Source: Meghimatium bilineatum (lineage: Eukaryota > Mollusca > Gastropoda > Stylommatophora > Philomycidae). Taken from it: a stretch of 64,000 bases of DNA. Below are positions 3,135 to 62,110 of this stretch, piece after piece. Position 1 is the stretch's first letter; each line of letters starts with the position of its first letter. The notes beneath the pieces were generated by a model. It was not told the DNA's origin. It worked only from the letters and a program-made list of their open reading frames with translations, and made no database searches. The position numbers were made by a program, and so were the translations under genes. Where the stretch lies: NCBI GenBank assembly GCA_034231615.1, contig CM067314.1, positions 12,725,881-12,789,880 of the forward strand. Reading direction: 5' to 3'.

Positions 3135-3535
3135 TTATACATGTATAGCACATATAACTACTTTACACACATCTAGTACATTTATTTAGTTTACATACAT
3201 CTAGAACATATATTTACGTTATACACATATAGCGCATATGTTTTAACTCATCTAGAACATATATTTACGTTATACACATATAGCGCATATGTTTTAACTC
3301 ATCTAGAACATATATTTACGTTATACACATATAGCGCATATGTTTTAACTCATCTAGAACATATATTTACGTTATACACATATAGCGCATATGTTTTAAC
3401 TCATCTAGAACATATATTTACGTTATACACATATAGCGCATATGTTTTAACTCATCTAGAACATATATTTACGTTATACACATATAGCGCATATGTTTTA
3501 ACTCATCTAAAACATAAGAAGCCGAAGAGGTCAGG
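3135..3535. repeat. 51-bp minisatellite, about 6 near-identical copies
   Basis: Full units start at 3198, 3249, 3300, 3351, 3402 and 3453, each with CATCTAGAACATATATTTAC and then TATAGCGCATATG. The sequence upstream (3135-3197) is a diverged version. The core CTAGAACAT-TATTTACGTTA is shared with the 28-bp array beyond the LINE tail (4075-4440), so one array is split by that LINE. Confidence 0.92.
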
Positions 3536-3550
3536 CAAAAAAAAAAAAAA

Positions 3551-4044
3551 CATTCAGAAAAATTAAAAATATATTGTGTAATACGACCTTGTCATTAGAG
3601 GTGATAAAGAGAGTTATGTAGTGCTATATAACCCCTATACTAACATATGGGTGCGAGCCTTGAACAATAAACAAACTGGAAAGTGGGAAATTAGAGGCAA
3701 CAGAAATGTGGTTCTACAGAAGAATGCTGAGAATACCATGGACTGCCAGAAAAACTAATGTGGAGGTGTTGAAAGAGTCAAATGTGAAACGGACCTTAAT
3801 CAACAATATAAGAAAAAGACAATCTTCTTTCTTTGGTCACTTCATGAGACAGGCAAATTTAGAGAACATAGTCACAACAGGCAAAATTGAAGGCAACAGA
3901 GACAGAGGGCGACAACGTGAGAAAATATTAGACATTTTGACAACCTGGCACGGCAGGAAAACAACAACGACTTTGATACATAATACTGTGGACAGAGAGC
4001 TGTGGAGAGCCATGACCACCTACGCCAGCCGGCATGGCACCTGA
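3551..4044 (+). mobile_element. LINE family A, 3' end copy 1
   Basis: A plus-strand frame encodes the C-terminal end of an endonuclease-reverse transcriptase, beginning near MWFYRRMLRIPWTARKTN, passing FFGHFMRQ and the basic RDRGRQREKILD segment, and ending in ASRHGT followed by a CCTGATGATGATGA tail. The catalytic RT core is absent, which fits ordinary 5' truncation. Four copies of this family lie in the window. It sits inside a minisatellite whose units occur on both sides. Confidence 0.88.
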
Positions 4045-4074
4045 TGATGATGAAAACATGTTATTTTACTTTTT

Positions 4075-12690: not shown

Positions 12691-13312
12691 TGGTTGGTTG
12701 GTTGGTTGGTTTGTTTGTTTGTTGGTTGGTTGGTTGGTTGCTGATCTAGCTGTCCATGAGCTCATGCCCTTTGACACAATGTCATTAAATGGCATTATAT
12801 TGCTGGGAAGTCTGTGGATTATCGGCCCACCCCGGGACAGAGCCAGAGAATAACTATCACACCTCCAGGAAGGTAGGTTTCAATCTGTGCACTGCTCCCA
12901 GCCACTGTAGCCAAGATAGGGCTCACTGTGCTCATTTCCCGCCACCAATTTACTGGTTATGCTGAACTTCTCTATTGTTCCAGGCATGCAACCAAATGTT
13001 CAAGTCAAAAGGATTGTCACGTCCTGAGTCACTGTGCCTCTATGATAGGCCTCAGCCATAGGAAAAAACAGTGCAGTAAGTTTTTTCCTCCCCAGTGCTG
13101 CACATTACATCTCAGGATCCCTCCCAACCACAGAGGGTGCATACATATATTCAAGTAAACATGAAACACATTTCAACAACAAAATAAAAGCATAATTGTA
13201 TAGATGACGTGCCATGAAGCTTCTACAAGAAGATAACCCTAATAAAACGGCATGTCATCTACTAAGGTTTTCTGTTGCATTGGTGGTTTGTCTACTGGGC
13301 CATTGGTGACAT
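12691..13312 (-). mobile_element. Retroposon B, copy 1
   Basis: About 620 bp, strongly similar to 28664-29293 (opposite strand) and 61488-62110. In transcription sense (minus here) it starts in the GTGGGTCTCACCAATGGCCC region and ends in an (AACC)n tail, seen here as GGTTGGTTGG at 12691-12740. It has no significant coding capacity, as in a SINE or other non-autonomous retroposon. It contains the inverted pair TAGATGACGTGCC...GGCATGTCATCTA. Confidence 0.85.
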
Positions 13313-15319: not shown

Positions 15320-16066
15320 GGAAGACCTTTACGATTTAATTAATGTAGAAGTCACACAAAGTAAAGAGAAAGGCCTCTTCCTAAATATCAAGAAAACAGA
15401 AGTACTGGTTATTTCAAAGAAACAAAATAACACACCTTGCAAGATCAAAGTGAATTATATAGTAAAACAGATCCACCAATTCAAATATTTCGTTACAATT
15501 ATTACGGCAGATGGAAGAAGTTCAACAGAAATAAGATGCAGAATAGGACTGGCAAAAACAACATTCAGAAAAATGAAAAATATACTGTGTAATATGATCT
15601 TGTCATTAGAGGTGAGAAAGAGAGTTATGCAGTGATATACAACCCTTATACTAACATATGGGTGCGAGTCTTGGACAATAAACAAACTGGAAAGTGGGAA
15701 ATGAGGCAACAGAAATGTGGTTCTACAGAAGAATGATGAGAATATCATGGACTGCCAGAAAATCTAATGTAGAGGTGTTGAAAGAGTCAAATGCGAGACG
15801 GACCTTAATCAACAATAAAAGAAAAAGGTAATCTTCTTTTTTTGGCCACTAAAGGAGGCAGGCAGGTTTAGAGAACATAGTTCACAACAGGCAAAATTGA
15901 AGGCAACAGAAACAGAGGGCGACAACGTGAGAAAATATTAGACAGTTTGACAACCTGGCACGGCAAGGAAACAACAACAACCTTGATACATAATACTGTG
16001 GACAGAGAGCTGTAGAAAGTCATGACCGCCTAAAGCAGCCGGCATGGCACCTGATGATGATGATGA
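15320..16066 (+). mobile_element. LINE family A, copy 2 (longest of this family)
   Basis: Begins further upstream than the other A copies, in the RT palm/thumb region: LNIKKTEVLVISKKQNN, QIHQFKYFVTIITADGRSS, RIGLAKTTFRKMKNILC, then a stop after RKRVMQ. It continues through the MWFYRRM.R.SWTARK region (15714 on) to the SRHGT-like end with several frameshifts, ending in the same CCTGATGATGATGA tail. Confidence 0.87.
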
Positions 16067-21589: not shown

Positions 21590-22172
21590 AAAATATTGTC
21601 AAAAGGATCGGATATAAATGGATACAGCAGATGGAAGAAGCTAACAGAGATAAGAAGCAGAATAGGACAGGCAAAAAGAACATTCAGAAACATGGAAAAT
21701 ATATTGTGTAATTTGATCTTGTCATTGGAGGTGAGAAAGAGAGTTCTGCAGTGCTATATAACCCCTATACTAACATATAGGTGCAAGTCATGGACAATAA
21801 ACAAACTGGAAAGTGGGAAATTAGATGCAACAGAGATGTGGTTCTACAGAAGAATGCTGAGAATATAATGGACTGCCAGAAAAACTAATGTAGAGGTGTT
21901 GAGAGAGTCAAATGTGAAACGGATCTTAATCAACAATATAAGAAAAAAGCAATTTTTTTTGGCTACTTCATGAGACAGGCAGGTTTAGAGAACATAGTTA
22001 ACAAAAGGCAAAATGAAGGCAACAGAGACAAAGGGCGACAACGTGAGAAAATATTAGACAGTTTGACAACCTGGCACGGCAAGGAAACAACAACGGCCTT
22101 GATTACATAATACTGTGGACAGAGAGCTGTTGAGAGTATGACGGCTTACACCAGCCGGCATGGCACCTGATG
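21590..22172 (+). mobile_element. LINE family A, copy 3
   Basis: Reading from RSRIGQAKRTFRNMENILC through YITPILTYRCKSWTINKL, EMWFYRRMLRI, a stop, then WTARKTN and the basic tail, ending CCGGCATGGCACC and TGATGATGAT. Frameshifts lie after 21940. It lacks the catalytic RT core. Confidence 0.87.
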
Positions 22173-22299
22173 ATGATGATCTATCTATGCAGACAACCTG
22201 AACATGAAACTAACAGAATCAGGAAGAGTGATCCAAGATCAAAATGTGTTTCGAATGACTACTCCTTTCTGTTCAGGATATGCTTTATGCTGAGGATCT

Positions 22300-22560: not shown

Positions 22561-22997
22561 TTGTTTTCTTCTTATTGTTGGAGAAATATATCGCTGTTTG
22601 GCGTCTTCTCTTACTTGCTTATTTGACTTCAATACTTCCCAACCAACATATAAGAGTTTTTAACATTTATTTTCAAATGAATATTATTTCTTCTCCAGCG
22701 CTTTTGTTGTTGTCCAACTTTCACAACTTTATGCTAATATGGATATTATATTGAATTTGAACAGTTGGTATATTTACGTATTGTTTTTAGTCTTTTTTTT
22801 CCAGATCTTTTTTAGGTGTCTAAACGCACTTAGCATAGTGACCAACGAAATCCACAGGAATAGCTAGATGAATCGTTAACAAGGCTTGAGCGAGTACATC
22901 TTATAATGCCGAGGGTCGCGCTTGAAGAAGCAGATAAACATGCTTTCTGGGGGGCATAATGTAATAGTAATAAACTTAAACTTACTTAAATTTAATT

Positions 22998-23952
22998 TCT
23001 CAAACAATATTGCAGTCGCTCAGTTTCTCAAGCAATACATCAATAATTAGAAACTCCAGACAGATGAGAAATGCTAGAACTCCAATGCCTGTGCCATAGC
23101 CACATGCATTGATATCATTGTTCATGATGGACTTATGATCATGCCATGACTTTGATGAGATGAAATCAAACACATCAATTGCAAAAATCAAACTAAGTAA
23201 TCGTAGGATGACCTGTGGTCTCTTCACATAACGAAGAGGATCAAATGGTGACCTTTGGTTTCCTCAAATAACGAAGAGGATCAAAGGGTGACCTTTGGTT
23301 TCCTCACATAACGAAGAGGATCAAAGGGTGACCTTTGGTTTCCTCACATAACGAAGAGGATCAAAGGGTGACCTTTGGTTTCCTCACATAACGAAGAGGA
23401 TCAAAGGGTGACCTTTGGTTTCCTCACATAACGAAGAGGATCAAAGGGTGACCTTTGGTTTCCTCACATAACGAAGAGGATCAAATGGTGACCTTTGGTT
23501 TCCTCACATAACGAAGAGGATCAAAGGGTGACCTTTGGTTTCCTCACATAACGAAGAGGATCAAAGGGTGACCTTTGGTTTCCTCACATAACGAAGAGGA
23601 TCAAAGGGTGACCTTTGGTTTCCTCACATAACGAAGAGGATCAAAGGGTGACCTTTGGTTTCCTCACATAACGAAGAGGATCAAATGGTGACCTTTGGTT
23701 TCCTCACATAACGAAGAGGATCAAATGGTGACCTTTGGTTTCCTCACATAACGAAGAGGATCAAATGGTGACCTTTGGTTTCCTCACATAACGAAGAGGA
23801 TCAAATGGTGACCTTTGGTTTCCTCACATAACGAAGAGGATCAAATGGTGACCTTTGGTTTCCTCACATAACGAAGAGGATCAAAGGGTGACCCAACTTG
23901 ACCATTCTCATCGTGCGCCAATATAACGGCCTTTCTTGTTCTCGGCTGCCAT
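22998..23952 (-). pseudogene. SYNGR: Synaptogyrin-like coding segment, interrupted
   Basis: The minus strand from 23245 to 22998 encodes FDPLRYVKRPQVILRLLSL, then IFAIDVFDFI, NNDINACGYGTGIGVLAFLI, CLEFLIIDV. This matches the conserved start of synaptogyrins: FDP...V..PQ.ILR, first transmembrane helix, the N..AC.YG loop, and GVLAFL in the second helix of the MARVEL domain. Synaptogyrins are four-pass synaptic-vesicle proteins. Upstream on the same strand, at 23952, an ATG in good context opens a short frame (MAAENKKGRYIGA) that would fit the variable N-terminus. Between that and FDP lie 17 copies of a 40-bp repeat made from the FDPLRYV codons, which shifts frame and creates stops. The segment also ends in an in-frame TGA (DCNIV-stop) about 13 bases before a good splice-donor match (AA|GTAAGT, about 22976-22985). 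One loop Cys of the family is Ser. Later helices are not found downstream. It is either a disabled copy or a real locus whose exon was damaged by the array. Homology is strong by eye; activity is doubtful. Confidence 0.72.
23206..23893. repeat. 40-bp minisatellite derived from synaptogyrin codons, 17 copies
   Basis: Unit GTCACCCTTTGATCCTCTTC plus GTTATGTGAGGAAACCAAAG on the minus strand, period exactly 40. In one frame each unit reads FDPLRYVRKPKVT, almost the same as the adjoining exon (FDPLRYVKRPQVI). The leftmost unit (about 23210-23250) is the exon itself. Units alternate between GGGTG and TGGTG variants in blocks and are otherwise almost identical, which implies recent expansion. Confidence 0.95.
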
Positions 23953-23982
23953 ATTTTTTCTATTCTCTTGCCGTCCCCCATC

Positions 23983-24002
23983 TGACGTCGTTCCTGACGT
24001 CA
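23983..24002 (-). promoter_or_regulatory. Two CRE-like sites upstream of the synaptogyrin-like ATG
   Basis: A perfect palindromic TGACGTCA (23995-24002) and a second TGACGTCG (23983-23990) lie 12 bp apart, about 30-50 bp upstream of the ATG at 23952. TGACGTCA is the canonical cAMP-response element bound by CREB/ATF proteins. The position suits a core promoter or 5' UTR. Function is inferred. Confidence 0.45.
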
Positions 24003-24130
24003 TCTTTTTCTGCGCACCATATCTATCTCCTCACAAACTCTCTATGCCTTTCTAAAAGCAGAACCAAGTACCAGGACACTCTGGTACAACAAGACACACT
24101 GCATATGACATACCTCTATTGCCTAGTCTT

Positions 24131-24423
24131 GTGATTCTCAACTTATCATGACGAGAGGTCCCCCTGTGGGACAAATTTATTTATATGCTCCCCCCCCCCT
24201 CCTGGTGCATAAAAAGAATAAAGGGACATTAACTTTCTTGACAAGTCAACAAAGTATTTCTCAAATTATATCAATATGGTTCTTGTTATTCATTGTTGAA
24301 GTAGTTAACTTCTCCCTTGATCGGCCAGTGGCCACCTGTTTAACTATTTACTCTGTAAATCCCTGAAAGTTTATGTGCCCTCTCCCTGGCGAGACTATAT
24401 GTCCCACGCTGAGAACCACTGAT
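24131..24423. mobile_element. hAT-like non-autonomous element, about 290 bp
   Basis: Left end GTGATTCTCAACTTATCATG and right end ..CCCACGCTGAGAACCACTGAT are inverted and hAT-like (..GGTTCTCAGCGTGGGAC..). The 8-bp CTAGTCTT is present on both sides (24123-24130 and 24424-24431). The interior has a C-run and no transposase. The ends are diverged. Confidence 0.6.
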
Positions 24424-24934: not shown

Positions 24935-25034
24935 NNNNNNNNNNNNNNNNNNNNNNNNNNNNNNNNNNNNNNNNNNNNNNNNNNNNNNNNNNNNNNNNNN
25001 NNNNNNNNNNNNNNNNNNNNNNNNNNNNNNNNNN
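24935..25034. other. Assembly gap, exactly 100 N
   Basis: A run of 100 N, a common placeholder for a gap of unknown size. Open frames that appear to cross it are meaningless. Confidence 0.99.
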
Positions 25035-28605: not shown

Positions 28606-28663
28606 GATTTCAATAATAATATCTACATTTGTTTCCAGTTCTCGGTTCTTCACCTTAGAGTTC

Positions 28664-29293
28664 CACCCATGTGGTGGCGTCTGTGGGTCTCACCAATGGC
28701 CCACTAGACAAACTACCCATGCAACAGAAAACCTTAGTAGATGAAATGCCGTTATATTGAAGTTATCTTCTTATAGAAGCTTCATGGCACGTCATCTATA
28801 CAATTATGTTTATTATGCTGTTTTTTTGTTGTTGTTGTTGAAATGTATTTCATGTTTACTTGAATATATGTATGCACCCTATGTGGTTGGGAGGGAGCCA
28901 GAGATGTACTGTGCAGCACTGGGGAGGAGGAAACTGACAGCACTGTTTTTTCTATGGCTGAGACCCATCATGGAGGCACAGTGACTCAGGACGTGACAAT
29001 CCTTTTGACTTGAACATTTGGTTGCATGCCTGGAGCAATAGAGAAGTTCGGTATAACCAGTAGTCAATAGGTGGCGGGGAATGAGCACAGTGAACCCTAT
29101 TTGGCTGCAGTGGCCCGGAGCAGTGCATAGGTTGAAACCTATTTTCCTAATGGTGTGATAGTTATTCTCTGACTCTGGCCTGGGGTGGGACAAAAATCCA
29201 CAGACTTCCCAGCAATATAATGCTTTTTAATGACATTGGGTCATAGGGCATGAGCCCATGGACCGCTGGATCAGCAACCAACCAACCAACCAT
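28664..29293 (+). mobile_element. Retroposon B, full copy with 10-bp duplication
   Basis: Bounded by CTTAGAGTTC on both sides (28654-28663 and 29294-29303). About 630 bp, running from CACCCATGTGG..GTGGGTCTCACCAATGG to ..GATCAGCAACCAACCAACCA, i.e. with an (AACC)n 3' tail. This copy fixes the element ends and orientation for the copies at 12691 and 61488. No protein is encoded, and no clear box B is seen. Confidence 0.82.
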
Positions 29294-43170: not shown

Positions 43171-43580
43171 AGTTGTTATACTAACATATGGGTGCGAGTC
43201 TTGGACAATAAACAAACTGGAAAGTGGGAGATTGGAGGCAACAGAGATGTGGTTCTACAGAAGAATGCTGAGAATACCATGGACTGCCAGAAAAAACTAC
43301 TGTAGAGGTGTTGAAAGAGTCAAATGCGAAACGGACCTTAATCAATAATATAAGAAAAAAGCAATTTTTTTACACTTCATGAGACAGGCAGGTTTAAAGA
43401 CCATAGTCACAACAGGCAAGATTGAACGCACCAGAGACAGAGGACGACAACGTGAGAAAATATTAGACAGTTTGACAACCTGGCACGGCAAGGAAACAGC
43501 AACGACTTTGATACATAATACTGTGGACAGAGAGCTGTGGAGAGCCATGACCGCCTACGCCAGCCGGCATCTGATGATGA
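43171..43580 (+). mobile_element. LINE family A, copy 4
   Basis: Starts at TTATACTAACATATGGGTGC (TYTNIWVRVLDNKQTGKWE in a shifted frame), encodes MWFYRRMLRIPWTARKN with shifts, then MRQAGLKTIVTTGKIERTRD and AMTAYASRH, ending CTGATGATGATGATTATTAT. It is the shortest 5' truncation of the four A copies. Confidence 0.86.
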
Positions 43581-43726
43581 TGATTATTATTATTCTGGAA
43601 ACTGTACAGTTATTATTTCTAGTCGTTATTATGAATTTTACAGGGATAATTTCAGTCTTGCCTTCGTCCGAAGAGAAATTATAGCCAAAATTAGAAACAG
43701 ACGGTCAAAATCTTTAGGGAAAGTTA

Positions 43727-61487: not shown

Positions 61488-62110
61488 GTTGGTTGGTTGG
61501 TTGGTTGGTTGCTGATCCAGCGGTCCATGGGCTCATGCCCTTTGACCCAATGTCATTAAATGGCATTATATTGCTGGGAGTCTGTGAATTTTCGGTCCAC
61601 CCGCGCCAGAGCCTGAGAATAACTATCACACCTCCAAGAAGGTAATTTTCAACCTATGCACTGCTCCCAGTACTGCAGCCAAGATAGGGTTCACTGTGAT
61701 CATTCTCCGCCACCAATTGACTACTGGTTATGCCGAACTTCTCTATTGCTCCAGGCATGCAACCAAATGTTCAAGTCAAAAGGATTGTCACGTGCTGAGT
61801 CACTGTGCCTCTATGATGGGTCTCATCCATAGGAAAAAAAAGTGCTGCCAGTTTCCTCATCCCCATTGCTGCACAGTACATCTCTGGCTCCCTCCCAACC
61901 ACAGAGTTATACACATATTCAAGTAAACATGAAACACATTTCAACAACAAAATAAAAGCATAATTGTATAGATGACGTGCCATGAAGTTTCTATAAGGAG
62001 ATAACCTCAATATAACGGCATGTCATCTACTAAGGTTTTCTGTTGCATGGGTGGTCTGTCTAGTGGGCCATTGGTGAGACCCACAGACGCAAACACATGC
62101 GTGGTTTTTC
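61488..62110 (-). mobile_element. Retroposon B, copy 3
   Basis: Strong match to 28664-29293 in reverse: (GGTT)n start, CTGATCCAGCGGTCCATGGG, AACTATCACACCTCCAAGAA, CCAGGCATGCAACCAAATGT, TAGATGACGTGCCATGAAG, GGTGAGACCCACAGACGC. Ends in A/C-rich sequence just before the next SINE. Confidence 0.87.

Follow-up and report, generated by a model that had tools for sequence, protein, structure and literature searches.

The window, by which we mean the whole 64,000-nucleotide stretch of Meghimatium bilineatum DNA analysed here, carries on its minus strand a synaptogyrin-like segment next to an array of 40-bp tandem repeats. Unit starts recur 17 times on this strand, from 23885 to 23245 at a spacing of 40. 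The array itself (23246-23885) consists of 16 units of 40 bp, and the 17th start is that of the synaptogyrin segment's own copy of the unit (23206-23245); the original prediction was right about the periodicity, and its count of 17 tandem units becomes 16 plus this copy. Fifteen of the 16 array units contain FDPLRYVRKPKVT and the remaining one contains FDPLRYLRKPKVT; variation among the units is confined to position 40 (A in seven, C in nine) and, in a single unit, position 19. The segment's own copy reads FDPLRYVKRPQVI. Array units ending in C are identical to it at 36 of 40 bases, those ending in A at 35 and the unit with the extra change at 34, with differences including positions 23, 26 and 31, whereas the next-best 40-mer elsewhere in the window reaches 23 of 40. 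These comparisons bear out the proposal that the array grew from codons of the segment. All 40 bp fall within exon 1 of the synaptogyrin gene on contig C24 (see below), and the unit spans no exon/intron boundary. Two 8-mers, GGTCACCC and GGTCATCC, lie 40 bp apart in the window and agree at 7/8 bases, a level reached by 41 of the 48003 8-mer pairs at lag 40 outside arrays. The founding unit is thus flanked by short repeats, as in a minisatellite born between short direct repeats.

Translation of 23245-22998 (minus strand; P0001) gives a match to human synaptogyrin-1 (PDB 8a6m, E=7e-13), confirming the synaptogyrin derivation that had been read from the sequence. Together with its upstream flank, P0001 scored 69.7 bits against human SYNGR1; residue-shuffled versions of the segment reached 23.9 bits at best (1000 shuffles, of which 743 gave any score). 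The match to the Pfam MARVEL family, a partial domain, had 27.9 bits, below the 32.8-bit cut-off. The similarity covers two membrane spans and then stops. The fragment ends after ENLS in exon 2 and does not contain the four membrane spans of a synaptogyrin gene, of which TM3 and TM4 are marked by the tryptophans W115, W119 and W161 named in PMC10352133. Among the matches listed, the next SYNGR1 match in the window outside the array had 24 bits, as against 62 for the segment.

The assembly from which the window comes, 1.61 Gb in 32 contigs, was searched for synaptogyrin and holds two synaptogyrin genes, on C23 and C24, both with later exons; human residues 97-176 were matched at these two places only. 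Exons 1 and 2 are separate in both genes. Exon 1 of the C24 gene starts at 39783677 and ends in AGTTTG/GTGGGT (the slash marking the junction); exon 2, near 39796740 and about 13 kb away, starts with CCTAG/GTTTTTGCG. The single TAG in the exon 2 match (C24:39796719-39796913) belongs to the acceptor site CCTAG and so does not indicate that the gene is broken at this point; one TGA occurs in the exon 3 match (C24:39799711-39799860). The same search gave at least 151 matches to P0001. We typed 101 distinct places among the matches listed, the two genes included, and in a few cases separate places may belong to a single copy; this leaves at least 99 places besides the genes that match the segment. 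Many of the matches are split into residues 1-32 and 29-80 of P0001, a change of frame that appears to be shared among the copies.

The dispersed copies derive from spliced synaptogyrin mRNA. Copy L018 reads AGTTTGGTTTTTGCG, in which exons 1 and 2 are joined exactly and the 13-kb intron is absent; the C24 splice junction corresponds to the point between window positions 23189 and 23188, and the two exons are fused in the dispersed copies examined. The copies carry about 245 bp of the spliced mRNA, beginning at GKAG (exon 1) and ending after ENLS (exon 2). Copies compared with the C24 gene lack the first 11 residues, the start codon and everything past part of exon 2. Over 170 bp, copy L005 is 94% identical to C24 exon 2. 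The captured piece would have come from the C24 gene or a close relative of it.

Across the 55 loci retrieved, 59 copies were located. Most of them carry a common head and a common tail around the synaptogyrin fragment, and most printed copies have the TG...CA ends of a long terminal repeat (LTR), TGTACCAG...ATTACA, with the end base changed in some; a recognised LTR end is absent in 13 of the 59. Thirty-five copies have both ends and no adjoining purine tract or primer-like stretch. With a fixed end pattern, a 4-bp target duplication was exact in 25 of these solo copies and agreed at 3/4 bases in another seven, and flanks taken from different copies agreed exactly in 16 of 1190 comparisons. 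A wider end pattern, composed after the flanks had been seen, gave 27 exact duplications among 36 copies and seven at 3/4 bases (control, 13/1260). Two solo copies, L009 and L015, have no target duplication. An empty-site view is provided by L005 (C1:72.737 Mb), where the LTR is inserted within another repeat; intron 1 of the C24 synaptogyrin gene contains an uninterrupted relative of this host repeat (C24:39793831-39793887), and the comparison reveals a CCAT duplication. The LTR of L038 has, in addition to its 4-bp duplication, ACAGATAAAAGATTGCTGTC (roughly 20 bp) on either side. Searches for tRNA and Rfam matches, over 5 and 4 loci with copies, gave none.

The synaptogyrin fragment is a regular part of this LTR. 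All 40 scored matches to the LTR head, from 125 candidates, and all 48 matches to the tail, where scoring covered 40 of 80 candidates, adjoin the synaptogyrin core, and among the candidates scored no LTR was found without the fragment. The fragment is present in two of three additional purine-tract matches, and the third breaks off; in L073 the LTR head gives way to other sequence.

In the window, the LTR, at C17:12.749 Mb of the assembly, occupies 22960-24088 on the minus strand, with ends TGTACCAG...TTATTACTATTACA; part of its tail is missing, and its length of 1129 bp is due to the array. It is flanked by TTGT before and TTAT after, which match at only 3/4 bases; this and the incomplete tail tell against the assignment. 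Since both ends are present and neither a purine tract nor a primer-site-like stretch adjoins it, the window copy is a solo LTR of the Ty3-like family described below. Read along the minus strand, the head (23904-24088) is family-wide in an alignment of 19 copies and showed no similarity to synaptogyrin. It contains a CRE-like palindrome, TGACGTCA (23995-24002), and a second CRE-like site, CGACGTCA (23983-23990, minus strand), both of which are found in the majority of the 19 aligned copies; TGACGTCA occurs twice in the window against 0.78 expected from base composition, and CGACGTCA is altered in L005. The sites noted beyond the array are therefore present, but as family-wide LTR sequence and not as a private start region. 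The ATG in better context noted there, at 23952, likewise exists but does not share the reading frame of FDP, and its own frame closes after 14 codons. The ATG in frame with FDP lies at 23981; from there the frame into the segment is open with 0 units only among arrays of 0 to 30 units, as each added unit of 40 bp moves the reading frame. Similarity of the family to the C24 gene begins at 23886-23903 (minus strand) with the start of the captured exon 1 sequence, GGTCAAGTTGGGTCACCC, whose terminal seed is GGTCACCC. The array follows, then the segment's own unit copy with terminal seed GGTCATCC (23213-23206). The end of the captured exon 1 sequence and the part of exon 2 together occupy 23018-23245, and the remaining tail, 22960-23017, is internally deleted relative to other copies. 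With a fragment that is already spliced, and with CRE sites and ATGs that belong to the LTR, the idea of a length-variable exon/intron boundary behind its own promoter is not supported. Upstream of the LTR, 24129-24421 holds an element with ends CAGTGGTTCTCA and TGAGAATCACAA and flanks GACTAGAT and GACTAGGC, which we take to be hAT-MITE-like, and a gap of 100 N lies at 24935-25034, about 850 bp past the LTR.

In four loci (L060, L041, L053 and L046), two same-strand LTRs enclose an internal region. The 3' LTR is preceded by a purine tract, AGAGGGAGGAAA, in all four pairs, and CTGGAG.ATGT follows the 5' LTR in three of the four; the primer-binding site is assigned by this position and common sequence, not via a named tRNA. 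The outer flanks are CTAT/CTAT in L041, TATA/TATA (within an AT-rich run) in L060 and ATAA/TTAA in L053. LTR-LTR identity is 87% in L060, 98-99% in L041 and 97% in L053; in the second LTR of L046 the head is separated by about 1.6 kb from the core, with something lying in between. Seven of the 10 internal pieces scanned match a Pfam family. RVT_1 (6e-16) and RT_RNaseH_2 (1.3e-28) were detected in L046, and Retrotrans_gag (1.1e-6) plus a zinc knuckle in L053; gag, reverse transcriptase and RNase H thus occur as pieces in different copies, none of them complete. Ty3_capsid scored 18.7 bits, below its 29.1 cut-off, and integrase was not seen in the 10 pieces. By its domains, the family is one of Ty3-like LTR retrotransposons. 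The internal regions of L060 (2256-3503, 6.9e-10) and L041 (2463-2795, 3.8e-12) also contain an RRM domain, possibly a second captured host domain; the zinc knuckle beside it in L060 (0.00041) is just below its cut-off.

Taking these data together, we consider it highly probable that a solo LTR occupies window positions 24088-22960 and belongs to a family whose ancestor took a spliced piece of synaptogyrin mRNA into its LTR, and within which the 40-bp unit is labile. The most likely route of capture, by inference, is switching by reverse transcriptase from the element RNA to a co-packaged synaptogyrin mRNA and back. Since an element receives its LTR sequence at both ends during reverse transcription, the descendants would carry the fragment in both LTRs; the window copy would later have been reduced to a solo LTR by recombination between the two. 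Because no fragment-free LTR was found among the candidates scored, the capture cannot be seen as a before-and-after pair, and its junctions stand without a comparison state. A retrocopy at the window locus itself was also considered and rejected: poly(A) is absent, and the flanking repeat of 8 bp is within chance (shuffle mean 7.85). Alternatively, a LINE-type retrocopy of synaptogyrin mRNA might have landed in the LTR of a master element and been copied along with it. The exact splicing of the insert would be explained equally, as by any mature-mRNA copy, but LINE retrocopies normally start from the 3' end of the mRNA and usually carry poly(A). The insert is an internal piece, truncated within exon 1 and within exon 2, and its 3' junction lacks poly(A) in the printed copies; the insert does not have the form of a LINE-type processed pseudogene, and we regard this origin as unlikely.

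Capture of cellular sequence by LTR elements is known. In LTR-mediated retroposition, as Tan et al. reportedly described it in 2016, reverse transcriptase jumps between element RNA and cellular mRNA to yield a spliced chimera. There the mRNA copy is reportedly placed beside or between LTRs, whereas in the present family, which kept multiplying, an internal piece was incorporated into the LTR. LTR retrotransposons of rice and sorghum carry captured genes, a high share of which in rice are reported as pseudogenes under little constraint (PMC3726574). The present family resembles them in that a piece of a cellular gene was multiplied by an LTR retrotransposon; in the part of that paper drawn on here, captured genes are drawn apart from the LTR boxes, whereas the synaptogyrin piece lies within the LTR. 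Such a position gives two copies per element and is retained by solo LTRs. A piece of host mRNA inside the LTR, combined with a labile repeat, thus looks like an unusual variant of a known process, in which an exactly spliced capture became part of an LTR and, with the element, spread to about a hundred places. A caution for annotation is that a protein-like exon adjoining a tandem array may be retroelement cargo.

The number of units varies widely across the family. Among the 59 located copies, 25 have one unit, 26 have two and three have three, and 4, 7, 10, 13 and 17 units occur in one copy each; at least two units are thus present in 34 copies and 4-17 units in five. The LTR pairs have 2/1, 2/7, 2/2 and 1/2 units. 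Since the two LTRs of an element are identical at insertion, they constitute a built-in clock, and unit numbers that now differ point to changes after insertion unless the LTRs have exchanged sequence. In L060, whose LTRs are 87% alike, the difference may reflect exchange or great age. A G at position 23 (G23) is found in an extra unit of 28 of the 34 multi-unit copies, and A at this position in the last unit of 55 of the 59 copies. G23 is absent from six multi-unit copies, four of which (L013, L016, L056 and L057) fall in one clade with 95% support; this clade has no multi-unit copy with G23. Judging from the distribution of this base across clades, the same 40-bp stretch has probably undergone two or more duplications in the family. 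A at position 26 is the usual last-unit state in multi-unit copies, with G there only in the window copy, and A31 is found in extra units of the window copy only; given the family-wide distribution of G23, A26 and A31, a two-phase history of the unit drawn from positions 23, 26 and 31 had to be revised. The state of one versus more units changes 20 times on a tree built from the region outside the unit, compared with a mean of 19.2 for shuffled labels (381 of 500 shuffles as low), but this tree is poorly resolved, with 43 of its 56 inner branches open. Its well-supported branches alone force at least three changes.

Slippage or unequal exchange between GGTCACCC and GGTCATCC would duplicate the intervening 40 bp, probably repeatedly in the family, and individual copies such as that in the window would then grow to long arrays. 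The C38 of most extra units is the expected product of the junction between the two seeds. In the C24 gene, the corresponding pair GGGCACCC/GGTCATCC agrees at 6/8 bases, as against 7/8 in the LTR, which makes the LTR version the better substrate. Variable tandem repeats of tens of bases are also found in SVA, a composite non-LTR element, and in retroviral U3 regions. Our family shares with these the layout of a retroelement with a variable tandem repeat, a likeness for which we claim no sequence relation. In the model of Haber and Louis (1998), minisatellites arise where repeats of 5-10 bp flank the future unit (as summarized in PMC6947457 and PMC3389668), and GGTCACCC and GGTCATCC, 40 bp apart, flank the unit in just this way. 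Here, by contrast, the one-unit, two-unit and expanded states coexist in a dispersed family and differ between LTR pairs. The mirage minisatellites of amphioxus are likewise made from gene sequence; according to PMC3087553, they extend across exon/intron boundaries in globin and Adh3 genes, whereas the present unit is exonic and carried in an LTR. Gene-derived minisatellites are also reported in human genes of segmental duplications (PMC2812944). Stages of a minisatellite, from the unduplicated state through two units to 4-17 units, can thus be seen within one family on closely related backgrounds, so that its birth and growth become countable instead of inferred from single loci.

The fragment itself appears nearly unconstrained. 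In the 19 of the 59 copies that align without gaps and at 80% identity or more to the C24 exon, pN/pS was 0.81 between copies and this exon and 1.21 from copy to copy, compared with 0.23 between the two synaptogyrin genes, leaving little sign of purifying selection. Since it also lacks the gene's start codon and TM3/TM4, it is most likely passive cargo. The units might instead serve as regulatory repeats and be retained for that reason, as duplicated enhancers do in retroviral U3. The CRE-like sites in the same LTR, the frequency of two-unit copies (26/59) and the seemingly repeated duplication of the same 40 bp would fit such a role; one-unit copies are, however, equally common (25/59), and the 20 unit-number changes are close to the shuffled-label mean on a poorly resolved tree, and we think a regulatory role improbable. 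More speculative still is a scheme in which the fragment, the 40-bp repeat and the CRE sites set LTR activity, and LTR transcripts or small RNAs regulate the C24 synaptogyrin gene, to whose exon 2 the LTR copies are up to 95% identical; we give it little weight. That the length of the window array is an artefact of assembly is very unlikely: the gap of 100 N does lie about 850 bp past the LTR, but unit variants are grouped in blocks and four copies on other contigs have 4, 7, 10 and 13 units.

Passive cargo is also favoured over a functional array, in which units would be spliced out at internal AG/GT sites, as in intron gain by tandem duplication, leaving a usable frame. The units do contain AAAG/GT, a predicted splice from 23852 to 23213 would remove exactly 640 bp and restore the frame, and precedents are described (PMC4974935, PMC10809524 and PMC3629103). 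The sites are weak, however: scored with a simple matrix based on the general consensus, the donor ranks at the 90th and the acceptor at the 68th percentile among sites in the window. AGGT occurs in 11% of random 40-mers, and the locus is an LTR under little constraint; we hold such splicing to be highly improbable. Finally, a stand-alone synaptogyrin gene copy or pseudogene with an amplified exon segment, killed in place as the original prediction had suggested, would account for the synaptogyrin match and for array flanks that join into an open reading frame, but is practically ruled out by the recurrence of the fragment at about a hundred places in the genome, with the same head and tail in most located copies, common LTR ends and 4-bp target duplications, and by the absence from copies compared with the gene of the first 11 residues and all past part of exon 2.

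The surrounding window is itself rich in repeats. Tandem repeats with a period of at least 10 make up 18.5% of the sequence, in 40 places, 14 of which are at least 300 bp long. One dispersed family has copies at 3514-4053, 15503-16064, 21623-22180 and 43176-43584, and a second at 12717-13309, 28663-29292 and 61488-62104; copies of both are about 400-630 bp long and 88-90% identical. Comparison with phages gave no match, and comparison with viral contigs gave nine pattern stretches with no relative among them. A long open frame at 62665-63537 matches reverse transcriptase (1.3e-11).
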